Below are positions 1 to 8,559 of a stretch of 10,431 nucleotides of DNA, piece after piece. The position numbers and the translations under genes are program-made. The stretch spans positions 1 through 10,431 of the forward strand of contig JAICXZ010000049.1 of the NCBI GenBank assembly GCA_025934475.1, in the 5' to 3' direction. Positions within the stretch are counted from its first letter, which is position 1; every line of letters begins with the position of its first letter. This DNA is from Mucilaginibacter sp. Lineage in GTDB: Bacteria; Bacteroidota; Bacteroidia; Sphingobacteriales; Sphingobacteriaceae. The notes below the pieces were generated by a model. The model saw only the letters and a list, made by a program, of their open reading frames with translations, was not told the DNA's origin and searched no databases.

Positions 1-2690
1 ACAGCCTGCAACTCTTCCGACTGCGATTGCAGTTCCTCATTCATCGACTGCAGGTTTTCAGATTGTTCCTGCAATACGTCGGCCTGGTGCGTAATAGTTG
101 CTGTGCGTTCTTTTACCTGGCGCTCCAGTTTAGCTTTTTGCTGCATGATAGCGTGCACACGGTAGCGATAAACACCATAGATGCTACCCACAATAAATAA
201 CGCGGCAAGCGACTCGAACCACCAGGTTAGCCAGAATGGCGGCACAATGGTTACCTTAAGACTCAATATTCTGGGCGACCACTTACCTTCGCCGTTTTGG
301 CTCTTTACCTTAAAGGTATAATCGCCCGGCGGAATGTTAGTGTATACGGCGGTATTCTTGTCGTCAACGTAATTCCAGCTCTTATCGAAGCCTTCGAGTA
401 TATAGGCATATTTCTTTTTGTTGGGCGATGCAAAATCAAGGGATGCATATTCAAATGACAGCACCGATTGATCATGCGACAACCGGATAGATTTAGTTTC
501 GGAAATGTCTTCTTTCAATGGTGACGGATCATCTTCGCCCCTGGAAGCCGTTACGTCTTTGTTAAATAACTGGAACCTGGTAAGCACCAGCGTCGGGTCA
601 TATGGATTTTCTGCAACCTGATCGGGGAAGAATGAGTTGAAGCCATTAACGCCTCCAAAGTAAAATGCCCCGGTGCGACTTTTTAAAGCACAATGTTGTT
701 TGAACTCATCAGCCTGCAAACCATTTTCTGTAGTGAAATTCCTGAACTTCTTTGTTGCCGGATCAAACATCGACATCCCATTATTGGTACCTATCCACAT
801 GTGGCCCTTATCGTCCTCCATGACCGACTCGGTGTAATCATTCGGAAGGCCGTCCTGTTTCTTGTAAACGATAAAATGATGAGTGCCCGGATCAAAAATA
901 TTTAAACCACCAAGCGTACAAACCCATAGCCGGCCCATATGATCCTGATACACATCGAGCGCGTTGTTATTGCTGATACTATTCTTGTTGTCGTCGTGTT
1001 TATAACTGGTACAGGTATAAGTTTTCGTATCAAAAAAGCACAAACCGGCATCATCAGTAGCCATCCACAGATTTCCGTTTTTATCGGCTATCATGGCATT
1101 GATCCGGTTGCAACCCAGGCTTTTGGGGTTAGACGGATCATTTTTAAAAGCAGTGAAGGTATTTGTTTTGGGATCGTAAAGATCTAAACCATCGCCAAAA
1201 GTACCGAGCCATATTCTTTTATCGGGAATTTGAACCACAGCATATACGTTATCTCCGCTCAGGCTTTTGGGATTTGCCGGGTCATGTTTAAACGTTTTGA
1301 ATATACGTGTTTTGGGATCCATCACACTTACGCCATTGGCCCAGGTGCCTATCCACAAATTTTTCTGATCATCCTGGCTAATGTTAAGGATGTTATCTCC
1401 TGAAATGCTCTTTTTATCGGCTTCGCTATGTTTAAATGTTGTAAAGGTTCCTTTTTTTAGATTGAACAGATCCATCCCACCACCATCAGTGCCGATCCAG
1501 ATATTATAGTTATCGTCCTCGAACATGGTAAGAACCAGGTTATTGGAGAGACTGATAGGCAAAGAGTTATGGGTATAGTGCGCAAATTCCGCCGAATTTT
1601 TCTTGTAGAGATCGACTCCGCCGCCATAGGTGCCTATCCACATGTTACCATGTCTGTCTTTCCTGATAATGTCAACCGAATTGCCGCTCAGGCTGGTGTT
1701 ATCTACATCGTCGTGAACATAGCTGAAGAATTGCTCCCAGGCGTCAGAATAAATGCTCAGGCCACCGTTTTCAGTGCCGATCCAAAGATTATGATTGTCA
1801 TCTTCGGCGATACTCTGAACGCTGTTATGAATCAGCGAATTGCTATTCTTCGAATCATGAAAGAAATGCTTAAACGCACCTGTTTTACGATCGAGCAGAT
1901 TTAAGCCGGCTTCCTGGGTACCCACCCAGATATGATTTTCACTATCCTCAAATATTGCAGTAACCTTATCGCCCGACAGTGATGTTTTGATTCTACTATC
2001 GTGTTTGTAGGAGGTAAAATTGCCGGTTTTCGCGTCGTACATGCACAGTCCATCATCAACCGTTCCTATCCACATGTTGTTCTCAGCATCCTTATAGATG
2101 GTCATAACCGAGTTATCGCTGAGACTCTTAGGATTATTTTTATCGTGTGTATAATGACGGAAAATAGCTGTTTTGGGATCAAAAACACTTATACCGTCGT
2201 GCTGGGTACCCACCCATATCCTTCCGTATCCGTCAACAGCGAGCCTGCTTATGAAGTTGCTGGCCAGGCTATTTACATTTTTATTATCGTGCAGGTAGCG
2301 ATGAAAACGGTCGGCTTTTCTATCGTATTTGCACAAACCACTTCCGCCTGTTGATACCCATATGTTGCCGTCTTTATCTTCAACAATATCTTGTATATAG
2401 TTATTGGATACCGTGGTTGTGTCCTTAACATCATTGCGAAACACGCGGAATTTATAGCCGTCATAACGGTTCAAGCCGTCTGCAGTACCAATCCAGATAA
2501 AGCCGCGGCTATCCTGGATGATACAGCTAGGGTCCAGTTCAGACAATCCGTTGGTGGTACTAAGGTGCGTAAAATGCAGTTGCTGGTTTTGGGCAAAAGA
2601 AAAGAAGGGAACGGCTATCAACAGAACAACAAACACACATTTCAGGCCCCTTGGTCCCACAAAGCTCATTAAATTAGCAGATTTAACCAT
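1..2690 (-). CDS. Two-component propeller sensor (hybrid-type), N-terminal part; 3' end beyond window
   Basis: The frame is open from an ATG at 2690 to the left edge: 896 codons with no stop. A signal peptide (hydrophobic core about residues 18-32, likely cleavage near SFA/Q) precedes 14 Reg_prop-type blades at residues 40-690. A Y_Y_Y domain follows (about 750-815, with YAYILEGFD and a PPGDYTF motif), then one membrane helix (about 820-843) and a Gln/Glu-rich coiled coil from about 850 that is still running at the edge. In this family the propellers and Y_Y_Y domain sense ligand in the periplasm, often glycans, and signal to a cytoplasmic histidine kinase, sometimes with receiver and AraC domains. 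Those parts are not visible here, so kinase or hybrid status is inferred. A second in-frame ATG at 2669 (Met8) would give a more compact signal peptide. No clear Shine-Dalgarno precedes either start. No polysaccharide-utilisation genes are visible beside it. Confidence 0.9.
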   Translation of the reverse strand, partial: MVKSANLMSFVGPRGLKCVFVVLLIAVPFFSFAQNQQLHFTHLSTTNGLSELDPSCIIQDSRGFIWIGTADGLNRYDGYKFRVFRNDVKDTTTVSNNYIQDIVEDKDGNIWVSTGGSGLCKYDRKADRFHRYLHDNKNVNSLASNFISRLAVDGYGRIWVGTQHDGISVFDPKTAIFRHYTHDKNNPKSLSDNSVMTIYKDAENNMWIGTVDDGLCMYDAKTGNFTSYKHDSRIKTSLSGDKVTAIFEDSENHIWVGTQEAGLNLLDRKTGAFKHFFHDSKNSNSLIHNSVQSIAEDDNHNLWIGTENGGLSIYSDAWEQFFSYVHDDVDNTSLSGNSVDIIRKDRHGNMWIGTYGGGVDLYKKNSAEFAHYTHNSLPISLSNNLVLTMFEDDNYNIWIGTDGGGMDLFNLKKGTFTTFKHSEADKKSISGDNILNISQDDQKNLWIGTWANGVSVMDPKTRIFKTFKHDPANPKSLSGDNVYAVVQIPDKRIWLGTFGDGLDLYDPKTNTFTAFKNDPSNPKSLGCNRINAMIADKNGNLWMATDDAGLCFFDTKTYTCTSYKHDDNKNSISNNNALDVYQDHMGRLWVCTLGGLNIFDPGTHHFIVYKKQDGLPNDYTESVMEDDKGHMWIGTNNGMSMFDPATKKFRNFTTENGLQADEFKQHCALKSRTGAFYFGGVNGFNSFFPDQVAENPYDPTLVLTRFQLFNKDVTASRGEDDPSPLKEDISETKSIRLSHDQSVLSFEYASLDFASPNKKKYAYILEGFDKSWNYVDDKNTAVYTNIPPGDYTFKVKSQNGEGKWSPRILSLKVTIVPPFWLTWWFESLAALFIVGSIYGVYRYRVHAIMQQKAKLERQVKERTATITHQADVLQEQSENLQSMNEELQSQSEELQA
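621..2573 (-). repeat. Fourteen propeller-blade coding repeats, about 144 bp period
   Basis: Within the sensor gene the blade signature (W[IVL]GT, a few residues, then G[LVM]..[YF]D) recurs with its Trp near residues 66, 111, 159, 207, 255, 303, 351, 398, 446, 494, 542, 589 and 632. A degenerate copy (YFGG) lies near 677. Spacing is nearly constant at 47-48 residues in the middle and shorter in the last blades. Fourteen blades fit two seven-bladed propellers in tandem, the usual arrangement in this family. Blades near residues 171, 458 and 506 share a DPKT...F segment followed by NPKSL, which suggests relatively recent internal amplification. Confidence 0.88.
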
Positions 2691-2854: not shown

Positions 2855-3256
2855 ATGAGTGATCGCAAGGACATAGCCGACAAACAGGATATCCACCTGC
2901 TGGTACAGAGTTTCTATCGTAAAGTGATTGACGATGATGTTATCGGCGAAATCTTTAGGGATGTACTTGTTTTTAGGTGGGATACGCATATTCCTATCAT
3001 GGTCAACTTTTGGGAGTCGGTACTTTTAGGCAGTGCCACCTATAAGGGCAATACGATGCGGGTCCACATCGACCTGGATAAAAAACACCGCCTCCAACCG
3101 GAGCATTTTGAGCGCTGGAAAAAGCTTTTCTTCGAAACACTCGATGAGCACTTTGAGGGCAATGTAACCTCAGAAGCAAAGAAAAAAGTGGAGTTGATGG
3201 AGGTGCTGATGCAAACTAAGATCGCCCAAAGCCACAATCCAAATTTTATTCAGTAA
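2855..3256 (+). CDS. Group III truncated haemoglobin
   Basis: A 133-residue cytoplasmic haem protein of the 2-on-2 globin fold, group III (TrHbIII, the Campylobacter Ctb class). By motif alignment from memory with Ctb, the key residues are Tyr21 (B10) in FYRKV, His45 (E7) in WDTHIP, His71 (proximal F8) in MRVHIDL and Trp88 (G8) in ERWKKLF. The strongly conserved NFWESVLLG and YKGN segments lie between E7 and F8. All haem-pocket residues are present and the length is normal, so it should be a functional globin. Members have been linked to oxygen or nitric oxide handling and peroxidase-like chemistry; the exact role here cannot be read from sequence. The start has a purine-rich GGAAAG just upstream. 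It is divergent from the propeller sensor and 118 bp upstream of the large membrane protein, apparently as its own unit. Confidence 0.93.
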   Translation: MSDRKDIADKQDIHLLVQSFYRKVIDDDVIGEIFRDVLVFRWDTHIPIMVNFWESVLLGSATYKGNTMRVHIDLDKKHRLQPEHFERWKKLFFETLDEHFEGNVTSEAKKKVELMEVLMQTKIAQSHNPNFIQ

Positions 3257-3374: not shown

Positions 3375-6300
3375 ATGCCAAAGCTATTTAACAGTAAGCA
3401 GGCGGGCATTATTATCACGATAGTAATATTGATATTTCTCGGCGCGAGCTACTTTTTCATTTATGTCCCCGAGAATGAAAAAACCGTACAGGAAAGGCGT
3501 TTCAGAACATTACAGAACATTGACAGCAATATCCATTTTAAGATTGATAACAGTACCTTATTGATCAATAACCTGCTCTACACCAATAAAACGGACAACA
3601 AGGGGCTAAAAATATTTGTCAATAAATACAACGACTCCCTCGAAAAATACTACAAAAATAAAGTCGATTATAAGCTCCTGGCCAGCGAATCGCCCGGGGC
3701 CGGCCATTCAATGGCAAAGCTTACACGGGCCTTTGTTGACTCGCTCGTAGACGACCAGATTGTAGTGGATGCTCCAGACAACCGACTGACTATTTATGTG
3801 AGCTATACTTCCCGGAAAGCCGCCGGCCAGCCAAAAATTGGGATTCAATTTAATATCGACCAGTTTGTAAGGCCGCTATTGCCTGGTGATGTTTTTGATA
3901 ACTATATCGTGTTTGACGATACGGGCAAGATATATGAAACGTTCAGATCCGGACTCAACTACAATATCAGGGATTCGCTGCTGGCAACCAGCAAGGGACT
4001 GAGCGTTCCGGGTTTGCATGATATCAGGATTGGCGGCACAGATTATAAAGTGTTCGCCCAGCCGGTAAACGTGCTTGATCAAAAATGGATAGTTGCCGGC
4101 CTGGTAACCTCAAAAAACTATCAAAAAGAAAAAAATCAGTTGCCGGTATGGATCGTGCTGTTGCTACTAACAGCGGCTATTGGAATAGTTGTTTGCATAC
4201 CATGGGTCAAATTGTATCACATGGGTGGCAAGGATAAACTGACAGTCAGAGACGGCATCGCGACGGTACTGGTCTCAATGATACTGATGTCGCTATTATG
4301 TTTTGTGTTTTTTAAATACAATTTCCGGTTCCTCATCCTCCGGGAAAAACCGCCAACTGACCCAAAGGAGGTATTGGCTAATAATATTGCGACAGCATTT
4401 GAAAACGAGCTTCACAATGCTTATAACGTGCTGAGTTATTGCGATTCCGTTTATGCGAAACGCTATCCCAATATTACGAGCACTTCGCATGATTTAGGCC
4501 GAGATCCGGCCGGAGATTCGATTCTGAAAAACACCGGTTATACAATTGACGTTCACCAGGTTTTTTGGGTGGATATGAATGATGGTCGCGAGATGTACAA
4601 CTGGGCTACCGATGTGAACATCCCCAAAGGCACTGATGTGAGCACACGCGATTATTTTATCAATATCAAAAATGATCATCCCAACCATGCTCAGGGTCGC
4701 GATACTTTTTATGTAAGTCAGAATGTATCCAAAGCCACAGGAGTATTTACCACAGCTATCGCCAAAAAATCTATTGCAAAAAGCACTTTGGTTGGCATGG
4801 CGCTTACCATGCAAAGCATGGATACGGTAGTGCTTCCCGATGGATACCAATTTGCATTAATTGATGAAAACGGACAAGTGCGTTACCATTCACGATCGCA
4901 ATTTAATCTTAATCAAAACCTCAAAGCCGAATTATCGGACAGCAGCGCTTTAATAAGTAGTCTTGAGGCCAAATCAAACAATACTTTTCAAACCGATTAC
5001 TTTGGCAGGCGCTACAACATCAAGATAAGGCCGCTTTCTCATCTGCCCTACTATATCACGATACTTGAGGATCTTGAATACAACGACGCACGCGATATGG
5101 AGGCCTACGCATTTACATTGTCCATGCTGTTGTGTCTGCTTGTTTTTCTCATTGTTGAGGTAAGCATCATTTTCCTGGCGTCATCAAGGCAATCATTTTT
5201 TAAGAAACAATTTTTCGAGACATCATGGATAGGCCCCAGGATCAGCTCGCATGGACAATATAACCTGGCCATTCTTACTAACCTATTCATTATTGGGATG
5301 ATGTCTTTCTATTTCGGCGCCACATTTACTCAAAACGCCGTGCTTATTAAGAGCTCATTCCTGGAGTACATATTTATCATCCTTTTTTCCATCATTCTTA
5401 CTTCGCTGTCGCTTAATGCCCTGTTCTACAGGCGATATAAACTGGAAAACTGCTACAAACACAAGTATAAGCTCCGGGCAATTGCCAGTTCGGCCGCACT
5501 TATTCTATTCATAGATATCGTAGCTGCCAATGCACTCGATCTGAAGAATAAATCAATTTTCGCCTCACATTTCGCCCATTTATTATATTACGAACTCATA
5601 GCTACCAGCTTTTGCCTGGTCGCAGTATATTACTATCCCCGGCTGCAGCCAACGCTAGCTGGATTTAACAAAATATGGCAGATCAACTGGAGTTATACCA
5701 ATAGCTTTGCTATGGTGGCCACTACCCGGCTCATCATTACCAGCGGCATCCCCGTAGCTTTCTTTTTTATGTATTCGTACGATTATGAGCAAAACCTGGA
5801 CAACCGCTACCGGCAATATCATTTCGCCAGAGATTTTGTAACCTCCCAGGATGTGTCAGCGAATACACCGACTAAAGATTTACTACAGAAGGGTTCGGAT
5901 TACACCGCAGGGGTTTATTTTGACGGCGTATCCGTGCAAAATATTGCAGTTCAGGAAAATCCTAAGGCGCTGGACCAGATCAAGCAAAAATACCGGTATC
6001 GTTTTGAGGATTCACTTTCGGCAATGATACTAAGTGCATTTCGTTTTCATATCAACGCCATCGAGACTAAAAACAACCTGATGAATTTTCCTACTATCGG
6101 CGAAGAAACATTTTTCAATAAGCTAACCAGGGAAAAAAGCAACGACAGTATTTCGGCGGTAACCTATTACCGGCTGAATCCCACAAGATATTTAGTGATC
6201 AATTCGAGTAACAACGACTATCAAGCGCCAAACTGGCTTTTGCTGTTCCCGGCAATCCTCATTTTCTATTTTATTATACATCATGTTATCAGGAAGTTGT

Positions 6301-7490
6301 TCGCGCTTAACCTGCCGGTTGAAAAAGGGTGGAAAGAGATTAACGAAGGGTTGCTTACCAACAACGAGTTAAACAAATTGCTTCTGATAGTGGGATCGCC
6401 AGGTTCAGGCAAATTATCAAACCTTAAGGAAACACTTAAAAAACACGTGCTGCTTAGTAATAATGGGCAGCGCCTTGTGTATGACGATCCGCTAAAATCC
6501 AATGTATTCGTCGCGGATATGATCCTCATCCCGGCCGGCTCCTCCGCTTGCGGAAATGATGCCGACGATTCCTTATGGAAGCAATGTGTGGAGGAAGCAT
6601 TGAAAGACAAGTATTCACTGGTGATAATAAATCATCTTGAATACAATATGAAGGATGGTAAAACGAATAATATGAAGCTCGACCTGCTCGAAAAGTTAAT
6701 GACTAATGGGAAGAGCAAAATCATGATCGTTTCTACCGTTCACCCTGTATCGTTCCTCGACTCGTACAACCAACAAATCAAGCAGGCTAACAAGGCAGAG
6801 TCAACAGATGATAAGAGCGCCGACCCGAAACCCGAAAACGAGCTTGAACGATGGATGGTACTGTTCGGGCATTTTCGCATCATTATTGAGCCACTGGAAG
6901 ACACCCATATCCATAGTGAACTGCCGGTAATTAAAGAGACCCAGTATTCGCATTTTCTGAACAAGATGCAAGACATAATCCCACCAAATATTGCAGATAA
7001 AGCCGACAAGATCGGGCCGGAGAGCGATTCGGTGATATTTAAACTACAGCTTACTTCGCAGTATTTTTACACCTACATATGGCAATCGCTTACAATGGAA
7101 GAGAAATTTCTTTTATATGACCTGGCAGAAGACGGCCTGGTTAACTCCTATGATGCTTATAATTTAAGCATCCTGATATCAAAAAAGCTGGTGATCATTT
7201 CCGACGGGACATTAATGCTATTCAATAAGGGTTTCCGGAATTTTATACTAACGGCGATTGGCCAAACCGAAGCCAACCGTATCAAGTCCCACGTAAAAGC
7301 TGATGGCAACTGGGACGGCCTCAAAACTCCACTGATGCTCGTCATGTTGGCCATCCTGGCGTTCCTGTTTGCCTCACAGCAGGAAGCCTATTCACGGATA
7401 ATAACTTATATTACTGCTTTTGGCGCAGGTATACCCGCCATACTCAAAGTATTCTCTTTGTTCGGAAACTCATCGCAAAAGGCTGGATAA
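3375..7490 (+). CDS. Large polytopic membrane protein: two Cache-like regions, degenerate P-loop NTPase-like and winged-helix-like C-terminus
   Basis: The protein has 1371 residues. Read by hydropathy: helix 1 (10-30); extracytoplasmic Cache-like region (32-255); helices 2-3 (257-275, 293-315); second, clearer Cache-type region (316-575) with a VSTRDYF motif and a GYQFALIDENG strand; helices 4-9 (577-602, 631-652, 662-684, 701-720, 732-754, 776-800); extracytoplasmic loop (801-951); helix 10 (953-972); cytoplasmic module (about 1000-1300); helices 11-12 (1319-1335, 1341-1363). Basic loops such as FYRRYK fall on the predicted inside, so the topology is consistent. The cytoplasmic module has a P-loop-like GSPGSGKLS at 1007-1015, a strand LVIINHLE at 1082-1089 in the Walker B position, KIMIVST at 1115-1121 in the sensor-1 position, and a winged-helix-like stretch at about 1235-1295. 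Canonical Ser/Thr after the P-loop Lys and the Walker B acid are replaced. I infer a ligand-sensing, STAND- or AAA-like signalling protein; the function is unknown. No kinase, cyclase or receiver motif was seen. Confidence 0.85.
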   Translation: MPKLFNSKQAGIIITIVILIFLGASYFFIYVPENEKTVQERRFRTLQNIDSNIHFKIDNSTLLINNLLYTNKTDNKGLKIFVNKYNDSLEKYYKNKVDYKLLASESPGAGHSMAKLTRAFVDSLVDDQIVVDAPDNRLTIYVSYTSRKAAGQPKIGIQFNIDQFVRPLLPGDVFDNYIVFDDTGKIYETFRSGLNYNIRDSLLATSKGLSVPGLHDIRIGGTDYKVFAQPVNVLDQKWIVAGLVTSKNYQKEKNQLPVWIVLLLLTAAIGIVVCIPWVKLYHMGGKDKLTVRDGIATVLVSMILMSLLCFVFFKYNFRFLILREKPPTDPKEVLANNIATAFENELHNAYNVLSYCDSVYAKRYPNITSTSHDLGRDPAGDSILKNTGYTIDVHQVFWVDMNDGREMYNWATDVNIPKGTDVSTRDYFINIKNDHPNHAQGRDTFYVSQNVSKATGVFTTAIAKKSIAKSTLVGMALTMQSMDTVVLPDGYQFALIDENGQVRYHSRSQFNLNQNLKAELSDSSALISSLEAKSNNTFQTDYFGRRYNIKIRPLSHLPYYITILEDLEYNDARDMEAYAFTLSMLLCLLVFLIVEVSIIFLASSRQSFFKKQFFETSWIGPRISSHGQYNLAILTNLFIIGMMSFYFGATFTQNAVLIKSSFLEYIFIILFSIILTSLSLNALFYRRYKLENCYKHKYKLRAIASSAALILFIDIVAANALDLKNKSIFASHFAHLLYYELIATSFCLVAVYYYPRLQPTLAGFNKIWQINWSYTNSFAMVATTRLIITSGIPVAFFFMYSYDYEQNLDNRYRQYHFARDFVTSQDVSANTPTKDLLQKGSDYTAGVYFDGVSVQNIAVQENPKALDQIKQKYRYRFEDSLSAMILSAFRFHINAIETKNNLMNFPTIGEETFFNKLTREKSNDSISAVTYYRLNPTRYLVINSSNNDYQAPNWLLLFPAILIFYFIIHHVIRKLFALNLPVEKGWKEINEGLLTNNELNKLLLIVGSPGSGKLSNLKETLKKHVLLSNNGQRLVYDDPLKSNVFVADMILIPAGSSACGNDADDSLWKQCVEEALKDKYSLVIINHLEYNMKDGKTNNMKLDLLEKLMTNGKSKIMIVSTVHPVSFLDSYNQQIKQANKAESTDDKSADPKPENELERWMVLFGHFRIIIEPLEDTHIHSELPVIKETQYSHFLNKMQDIIPPNIADKADKIGPESDSVIFKLQLTSQYFYTYIWQSLTMEEKFLLYDLAEDGLVNSYDAYNLSILISKKLVIISDGTLMLFNKGFRNFILTAIGQTEANRIKSHVKADGNWDGLKTPLMLVMLAILAFLFASQQEAYSRIITYITAFGAGIPAILKVFSLFGNSSQKAG

Positions 7491-7544: not shown

Positions 7545-7577
7545 AAGCCGTCCGCTAGACAGCGAATGGCTTTTTTT
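7545..7577 (+). terminator. Intrinsic terminator of the large membrane protein gene
   Basis: AAGCC at 7545-7549 pairs with GGCTT at 7568-7572, and inside it CGCT at 7553-7556 pairs with AGCG at 7561-7564 around an AGAC loop; the two stems are joined by 3-nt internal loops on each side. A run of seven T follows at 7571-7577. This is a good factor-independent terminator for plus-strand transcription, 55 bases after the stop. On the minus strand no T tract follows the hairpin. The T run overlaps the stop codon of the convergent regulator gene (TAA on the minus strand at 7578-7576). Confidence 0.8.
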
Positions 7578-8559
7578 ATTGTACTACAGCCGCGTTCTTG
7601 TTGTACTTATTGCGGTAATCAACCGGGGGCATGCCCGTTATTTTTTTGAATACATCTCTGAATGCTTTGATATCAGTATAACCAACATCATACATCACTT
7701 CGTAAATGGTTTTCTTATTACTTTCGAAGCTTTTTTTCGCGGCCTCAATCTTAACGCGCTGGATATATTCAACAACTGTATTGTGCGTCGATTTTTTGAA
7801 GCGCCGTTCGAAGGTGCGCCGAACAACATTGAATCTGTCAGAAAGCTCGTCGACCGTTATTTTCTGCTGAAAATTATTTTCGATGTATTCCTGTGCGTTT
7901 TTAACCACTTCGTCTTCATGATCTTTTTGCCCGCGGAAGATCGAAAACGGCGACTGCTCTGTGCGGCCCATATCCACCACAAAATATTTGGCGGCCAGAA
8001 TGGCCATTTCGCGGTTAGTATATTTCTCTACAAGGTATAGCAACAGGTTCCAATAGGACGTTGCACCACCGCTTGAGTATACGTGGTTTTCCTCCGTGAT
8101 CACTTTCTCATCAACCAGGTTAACCTCCGGGAACATGGACCTGAACTGGTTGGCAAAAAACCAATGCGTCGAACATTTTTTTCCATTAAGCAGCCCTGTT
8201 GATGCCAGCAAAAATGCGCCCAGGCAGAGGCTGGCCACTTCGGCGCCATTGTTATACTGATCGATGATCCAGGGAATCATGTCCTCGTTCATCTTAATGC
8301 CCGCGTTTAAATCGCCGAAAAGCGGTGGCACTATTACCAGGTCAGTTTTTTTAACTTCATCCAGCAACAGGTCCGTATGGATGGAAAATGCGCCTCCGTT
8401 AAGTTTTACCTCGCGGGAGCGGCCTACCAGTTGCACATTGAATAACGGCGGTTTATCCGCATTCTGCAAAAACATATTTACTGCTGTAAACATATAGCGC
8501 GGGTCGGCAATGCCCTGCAACACGGCGCTTTCGGGTACCAGGATCGAAACTGTTTTCAT
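7576..8559 (-). CDS. GlxA-family transcriptional regulator (DJ-1/PfpI-like domain + AraC HTH)
   Basis: The protein has 327 residues, the usual length for this class. The N-terminal half (about 3-195) is a DJ-1/PfpI (class I glutamine amidotransferase-like) fold with a nucleophile elbow SLCLGAF carrying Cys112, a following THW with His132, and the YSSGGATSYW segment. The C-terminal part (about 215-320) is an AraC/XylS double HTH with VDELSDRFNVVRRTFERRFK and the closing IYEVMYDVGYTD...F...GMPPVDYR signature. In this family the amidotransferase-like domain is generally taken to be a ligand-sensing module rather than an enzyme; the ligand cannot be predicted. The gene is convergent with the large membrane protein and divergent from the DinB/VOC/DoxX run, which it is likely to regulate (inference). 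The ATG at 8559 has no Shine-Dalgarno, and the predicted promoter lies so close that the mRNA may be leaderless. Confidence 0.93.
   Translation of the reverse strand: MKTVSILVPESAVLQGIADPRYMFTAVNMFLQNADKPPLFNVQLVGRSREVKLNGGAFSIHTDLLLDEVKKTDLVIVPPLFGDLNAGIKMNEDMIPWIIDQYNNGAEVASLCLGAFLLASTGLLNGKKCSTHWFFANQFRSMFPEVNLVDEKVITEENHVYSSGGATSYWNLLLYLVEKYTNREMAILAAKYFVVDMGRTEQSPFSIFRGQKDHEDEVVKNAQEYIENNFQQKITVDELSDRFNVVRRTFERRFKKSTHNTVVEYIQRVKIEAAKKSFESNKKTIYEVMYDVGYTDIKAFRDVFKKITGMPPVDYRNKYNKNAAVVQ

Follow-up and report, generated by a model that had tools for sequence, protein, structure and literature searches.

A giant Cache-type membrane protein of Bacteroidota with a candidate STAND/NLR-like pseudo-switch

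Introduction

STAND NTPases and NLRs, represented by the NB-ARC proteins RPP1, Roq1 and CED-4 and by bacterial Avs4, combine a nucleotide-binding domain (NBD), a helical segment and a winged helix. Inactive STAND cores and membrane-near systems are already known. The iSTAND proteins of MoxR-vWA ternary systems, as described by Kaur et al. 2020 (PMC7159879), are fused to peptidase, TIR or EAD modules; some of the systems lie near the membrane, their hosts include Bacteroidetes, and "cache" occurs 0 times in the paper's main text. CARD-NLR defence systems use an NLR-like ATPase and have phospholipases named among their effectors, and the main text of that source (PMC13236601) contains "transmembrane" and "cache" 0 times each. 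On the sensory side, Cache is a dominant type of prokaryotic outside sensor according to a survey (PMC4822843) in whose main text words beginning with ATPase or NTPase appear 0 times. A Cache sensor joined to a STAND/NLR-type switch was not found in the open-licence full texts searched.

Here, we describe a giant protein (P0001) encoded in the window, by which we mean the whole stretch of DNA analysed, a 10,431-nucleotide Mucilaginibacter contig (C140). Prediction and comparison place Cache-type domains outside, several helices in the membrane, and in the cytoplasm a module in which the modelled order of NBD, helical segment and winged helix is shared with STAND NTPases and NLRs. It differs from these in its broken Walker A and B motifs, in outside Cache-type domains in place of repeats, and in having its module flanked on either side by transmembrane (TM) helices. 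With the iSTAND proteins it probably has an inactive STAND core in common, but it carries Cache-type sensors, and no MoxR or vWA gene was seen among the window ORFs scanned; nor did those ORFs include the trypsin-like gene of CARD-NLR systems. Like the histidine kinases and chemoreceptors of the dCache class, it has a dCache domain by fold. We tentatively read the protein as a receptor in the membrane, one of a family conserved in Bacteroidota and Balneolota, with Cache outside, a STAND/NLR-like pseudo-switch inside and a hydrolase output, a reading that comes close to being probable.

Architecture of the giant protein

The first-pass annotation had proposed a giant multi-domain membrane protein, and its layout is borne out by the intact ORF, the structural models and hydropathy (Table 1). 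The six-helix block (TM4-TM9), the folded third outside region of about 150 residues and the two terminal helices are all recovered. The cytoplasmic module is flanked by TM10 and TM11-12, as judged from hydropathy and charge. P0001 has 1 match in its own genome, which is 70% complete and in 852 contigs.

Table 1. Features of the giant gene and its upstream neighbour in the window.
Feature	Coordinates	Strand	Evidence and remarks
Upstream neighbour, 133 aa, weakly globin-like	2855..3256	+	Pfam Globin E 0.053, below cut-off
Giant gene, 1371 aa, ~12 predicted TM helices	3375..7490	+	Boundaries hand-set from model and hydropathy
Outside domain 1 (residues 31-257), Cache-like	3465..4145	+	AF2 model; profile-profile match to domain 2
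Outside domain 2 (residues 315-576), dCache	4317..5102	+	Fold
Six-helix membrane block TM4-TM9 (residues 577-800)	5103..5774	+	AF2 model; hydropathy, loop charges
Outside domain 3 (residues 801-952), folded alpha/beta	5775..6230	+	Secondary structure in two models
P-loop-type alpha/beta core (residues 1001-1175), STAND/AAA+-like, probably pseudo-NTPase	6375..6899	+	Structure comparison; motif counts
Degenerate Walker A GSPGSGKL (1007-1014)	6393..6416	+	Motif counts, listed homologues
NHLEYN (1086-1091) at expected Walker B place	6630..6647	+	Residue counts, listed homologues
Winged-helix domain (1225-1300)	7047..7274	+	Conservation; model; covered by NLR alignments
C-terminal two-TM hairpin (1310-1360)	7302..7454	+	Model; hydropathy; conservation 0.72

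Two Cache-like outside regions had been expected; in the predicted structure the second has the fold and the first probably has it. Domain 2 shows the two-lobed Cache fold in a structure search and is placed outside the membrane by hydropathy and charge. Pfam dCache_1 scores 27.9 bits on P0001, under the cut-off of 45, and 52.3 bits, above it, on a relative (L042). Domain 1 matches domain 2 in profile-profile comparison with a probability of 79.8% (E 1.5e-5), against 0.1-0.2% for control pairs, and domain 3 has no profile link to either. The VIA-align and Foldseek lists were each filled by one domain, and missing matches for domain 1, domain 3 and the TM block are uninformative there. What might such sensors report to? 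The usual Cache-receptor outputs had been noted as missing, and Pfam and NCBIfam detect no kinase, MCP, cyclase, GGDEF/EAL or phosphatase domain in P0001; histidine kinase, cyclase, c-di-GMP and chemoreceptor outputs were rejected on this ground.

Homologues and distribution

Of the 7,999 best candidates in a database search, 250 proteins reached E<=1e-3; 120 of these are listed (P0001 and 119 homologues). Three of the listed homologues are 80, 69 and 57% identical and the remainder 35-51%, from sources that include Mucilaginibacter, Taibaiella, Ginsengibacter and Ferruginibacter. Most align over nearly the full length, and the predicted architecture is conserved. When one genome per species was scanned with a pattern, 45 loci were found, in Mucilaginibacter, Pedobacter, Ferruginibacter, Dyadobacter, Taibaiella, Hufsiella, Pinibacter and other Bacteroidota, and also in Gracilimonas, assigned by NCBI to Balneolota. 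Database searches turned up no characterised family for the homologues, in keeping with the suggestion of an undescribed class.

The gene is patchy. In genome samples that overlap one another and include the own genome, the protein query matched 8 of 151 family genomes, one of which has a weak hit in a frame of 77 aa, and 6 of 296 in the phylum sample; a profile found 14 of 395 class genomes and 6 of 395 phylum genomes. One locus (L065), which the profile missed at E<=1e-5 and whose matches to the protein query are pieces with 33% and 23% identity, is counted as a weak member; another (L036) is cut by a contig end. In two loci the giant gene is split into two adjacent ORFs (L048:6420-9755 and L102:6425-10759, the first half of the latter recognised by eye). 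A standalone form of the cytoplasmic module was considered and rejected: residues 985-1371 used as query gave 62 shorter proteins that look like fragments, because many are on short contigs or named partial.

Gene neighbourhoods and a possible accessory role

The globin-like ORF ends 118 bases before the giant gene and may be co-transcribed with it. Pfam found no patatin, Tle1 or M19-type hydrolase gene among the window ORFs. Divergent from the giant gene lies the start of a periplasmic Reg_prop/Y_Y_Y-type sensor (3-2690, minus strand) that runs off the contig; its neighbour cluster recurs in L018 and L058. On the other side is a DJ-1/PfpI plus AraC-type regulator (7576-8559, minus strand), which also adjoins the giant gene in L024 and is one ORF away in L018; it is followed by DinB-like genes and, in the window and L018, by glyoxalase-like ones.

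Neighbours were surveyed at 62 loci (45 from the pattern scan, 16 from further searches, and the window), which are not independent: several end at contig edges, many are close kin, and two (L062 and L066) look like one gene, with contigs of equal length and identical neighbour scores. The next same-strand ORF encodes a patatin in 8 loci and a Tle1-like phospholipase in 2. In addition, M19 dipeptidases stand on both sides in L097, a CHAP protein in L057, and an alpha/beta hydrolase, weak and below cut-offs, in L106. Measured from the end of the stop codon, the gap to the giant ORF is -25 to +18 bases for the seven patatins that stand upstream; other hydrolase spacings are +53 (L065), +121 (L061) and an overlap of 32 bases (L039). 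The neighbours for Pfam were picked by eye, not blind, so at least 13 of the 62 related loci have an adjoining hydrolase. In 49 loci, whose neighbours were scanned in part, no such hydrolase was seen next door; other scanned neighbours include ThiC, a Na/H exchanger, a sodium symporter, a histidine kinase and a haem peroxidase. The adjoining hydrolases belong to more than one family, and the tree speaks for repeated recruitment, because there are two patatin clusters, both gene sides are used, and Tle1-like genes occur in two far-apart members. Phospholipases do recur beside the gene, but no single partner is common to most loci, the largest neighbour cluster covering 8 of 46.

One TM protein (c2) was rejected as an obligatory partner. 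It is matched in 15 of the 151 family genomes, compared with 8 for the giant (own genome included), and both occur in only four genomes (G001, G021, G035 and G048), close together only in G035 and G048. In one c2 region (L113) no c2 ORF was called. Islands without the giant gene also exist. At L109:6605-11999, c2 and its companions c12 and c25 are grouped with genes for an amidase, a Tle1-like phospholipase and a patatin, a set partly present in L110 and L112; L110, L112 and L118 combine c2 with an amidase or amidohydrolase. All these islands are in genomes of the window's family. In L097, whose P-loop is intact, one strand (4691-18838) carries c2, an amidohydrolase, the two M19 dipeptidases, and papain-like and caspase-like peptidases.

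Perhaps the giant is a membrane partner of an accessory or immunity-like kind, there to hold, deliver or restrain co-encoded hydrolases and not to relay an outside signal. The operon-like patatin, Tle1-like and M19 genes would fit, as would the amidase and c2 in the wider islands. Considering that outside sensing is the role described for Cache domains (PMC4822843), and that most of the loci lack a visible hydrolase next door, we regard this as rather unlikely.

Fold of the cytoplasmic module

A P-loop-like module, a winged-helix-like stretch and a STAND-type switch had been suggested for this region. The predicted model does contain a P-loop-type core, at residues 1001-1175, and a winged helix follows, inside the NLR alignments. 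Single structure alignments run across NBD, helical segment and winged helix of RPP1, Roq1 and CED-4; in four rows (7crc_B, 7dfv_A, 7jlv_A and 8jol_B) 243-269 residues are aligned, within 985-1335. The rmsd to the NLRs is 5.5-6.4, so domain placement differs, at least in the prediction.

Support from sequence for a STAND-type switch is thinner. Among 44 members, nSTAND1 is matched in 4 (best E 0.0013) and nSTAND3 in 3 (best E 0.00016), and no STAND profile matches P0001 or its own cytoplasmic segment. NB-ARC weakly matches L097 (E 0.0099) and does not match L098. With hhalign, STAND families reach a probability of 5.5-7.8% over only 26-31 residues at the P-loop, and another STAND-labelled pair 0.2%. 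Searches against PDB sequences gave nothing for the protein at E<=1 or for the 44-row profile at E<=10, and PADLOC defence models gave only mad8 (E 0.018, over 998-1095). The domain order of such a switch is supported by structure; the sequence hints are weak and the Walker motifs broken.

Could the module instead derive from a plain AAA+ protein of the DnaA/RFC/ORC type, unrelated to STAND? AAA+ structures are level with the NLRs on Z (10.8 for 5x06_H, 10.7 for the RFC row 9peo_C), and they fill most of the Foldseek list, where TM-scores are low (0.14-0.26 by query length among the rows listed). The NLR and CED-4 rows, however, take in all three parts in one alignment, with their 241-269 aligned residues against 136-195 for the DnaA-like and RFC rows, and an AAA+ origin outside STAND seems unlikely.

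Probable decay of the nucleotide motifs

GxxxxGK is present in 94 of the 119 listed homologues and absent in 25, and the full GxxxxGK[ST] is found in 0 of 119; at position 1014, 95 have L and 18 have K. The Walker B of STAND proteins is an acidic residue after a hydrophobic strand. Here, the corresponding position (1086) is N in P0001; among the listed homologues it is N in 112, D in 5 and T in 2, followed by an H1087 present in all 119 and by E (117) or D (2) at position 1089. Among 32 more diverse aligned proteins (P0001 included), Walker A is intact at the core only in L097 and L098, the latter with Asp at Walker B; L065 carries the pattern elsewhere in its sequence. Several distant members have no P-loop yet keep the winged helix.

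Loop labels assigned by regular expressions to 48 more diverse members were intact in 2, GK without S/T in 18 and "not matched" in 28, a label that covers near-misses (e.g. GLPGSNKL) as well as lost loops. The tree, which has no fixed root and whose long branches make the deep part unsure, needs 8 changes of label, and well-supported branches force 7 of these. We infer decay of the P-loop rather than gain. Because Walker A and Walker B, both tested, proved broken, the protein is not filed as a STAND NTPase, and the earlier idea that outside sensing is coupled to an NTPase finds no support here. Judged from sequence, the core in most lineages probably no longer hydrolyses ATP, and the protein's way of working may resemble that of an NLR-type switch tethered to the membrane.

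A true ATP-driven STAND switch would require the GKL Walker A still to bind and hydrolyse ATP, with other residues replacing S/T and Asp. The retained GxxxxGK is consistent with this, H1087 and E1089 could be catalytic, and the motifs of L097 and L098 are intact. Given the complete lack of GxxxxGK[ST] among the listed homologues, the 25 of them without even GxxxxGK, and the distant members without the loop, such a switch is improbable.

The winged helix

Of ten segments compared, the winged helix has the highest mean column conservation, 0.84, against 0.39-0.72 for the other nine; the core has 0.55 and the Cache regions 0.48 and 0.52. The stretch is slightly acidic (7 D/E and 5 K/R in 55 residues) and contains invariant acidic residues. 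That it binds DNA, making the protein a membrane-tethered one-component transcription regulator, would suit a winged helix placed after a sensor and the transcription factors among known Cache outputs (PMC4822843), but with its acidic character (charge alone being weak evidence), its position where NLRs have theirs, and its confinement between TM10 and TM11-12, this is very improbable.

One oddity counts against a cytoplasmic module. CarboxypepD_reg-like Ig-type domains usually occur in exported proteins, and such a domain (PF13715) is found in 13 of the 119 listed homologues, at about 1185-1260 in P0084 and P0087. In the four proteins checked (P0084, P0087, P0101 and P0109), the insert lies between "GHYRI" and "ET" ahead of the winged helix. 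An insert of this kind between core and winged helix also occurs at L054 and L055, and a 352-aa piece (P0174) has a PKD-type domain.

Proposed mechanism

In the receptor reading, small molecules bound outside would shift the TM helices, and this shift would change the place of the NBD relative to the winged helix. The latter, which is nearly invariant, would then touch a partner in the cytoplasm or the membrane. The core would in most lineages be a ligand-driven or binding-only pseudo-switch, probably without ATP hydrolysis. From the operon-like neighbours in relatives, the partner may often be an envelope hydrolase (a patatin, Tle1-like phospholipase or M19 dipeptidase), and the output would probably be that lipid or peptidoglycan is remodelled or attacked in a controlled way. 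Counting against this reading are the window itself and the 49 loci where such a hydrolase was not seen, the mixed hydrolase families, the islands that lack the giant gene, the AAA+ rows level with the NLRs, the weak profile matches to STAND families and the Ig-type insert. The boldest version is an outside-in NLR, in which extracellular small molecules bound by Cache drive the NBD/winged-helix rearrangement, mostly without ATP hydrolysis, and so unleash co-encoded phospholipases or peptidoglycan enzymes on the cell's own envelope; we consider it unlikely, if less so than any of the alternatives above.

Significance

If the receptor reading is true, a dominant type of prokaryotic outside sensor and an immune-receptor-type switch are united in one polypeptide. 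With members that range from an intact P-loop to no loop at all, one could test whether NLR-like signalling is possible without ATP turnover, and the phospholipase operons give a concrete readout.
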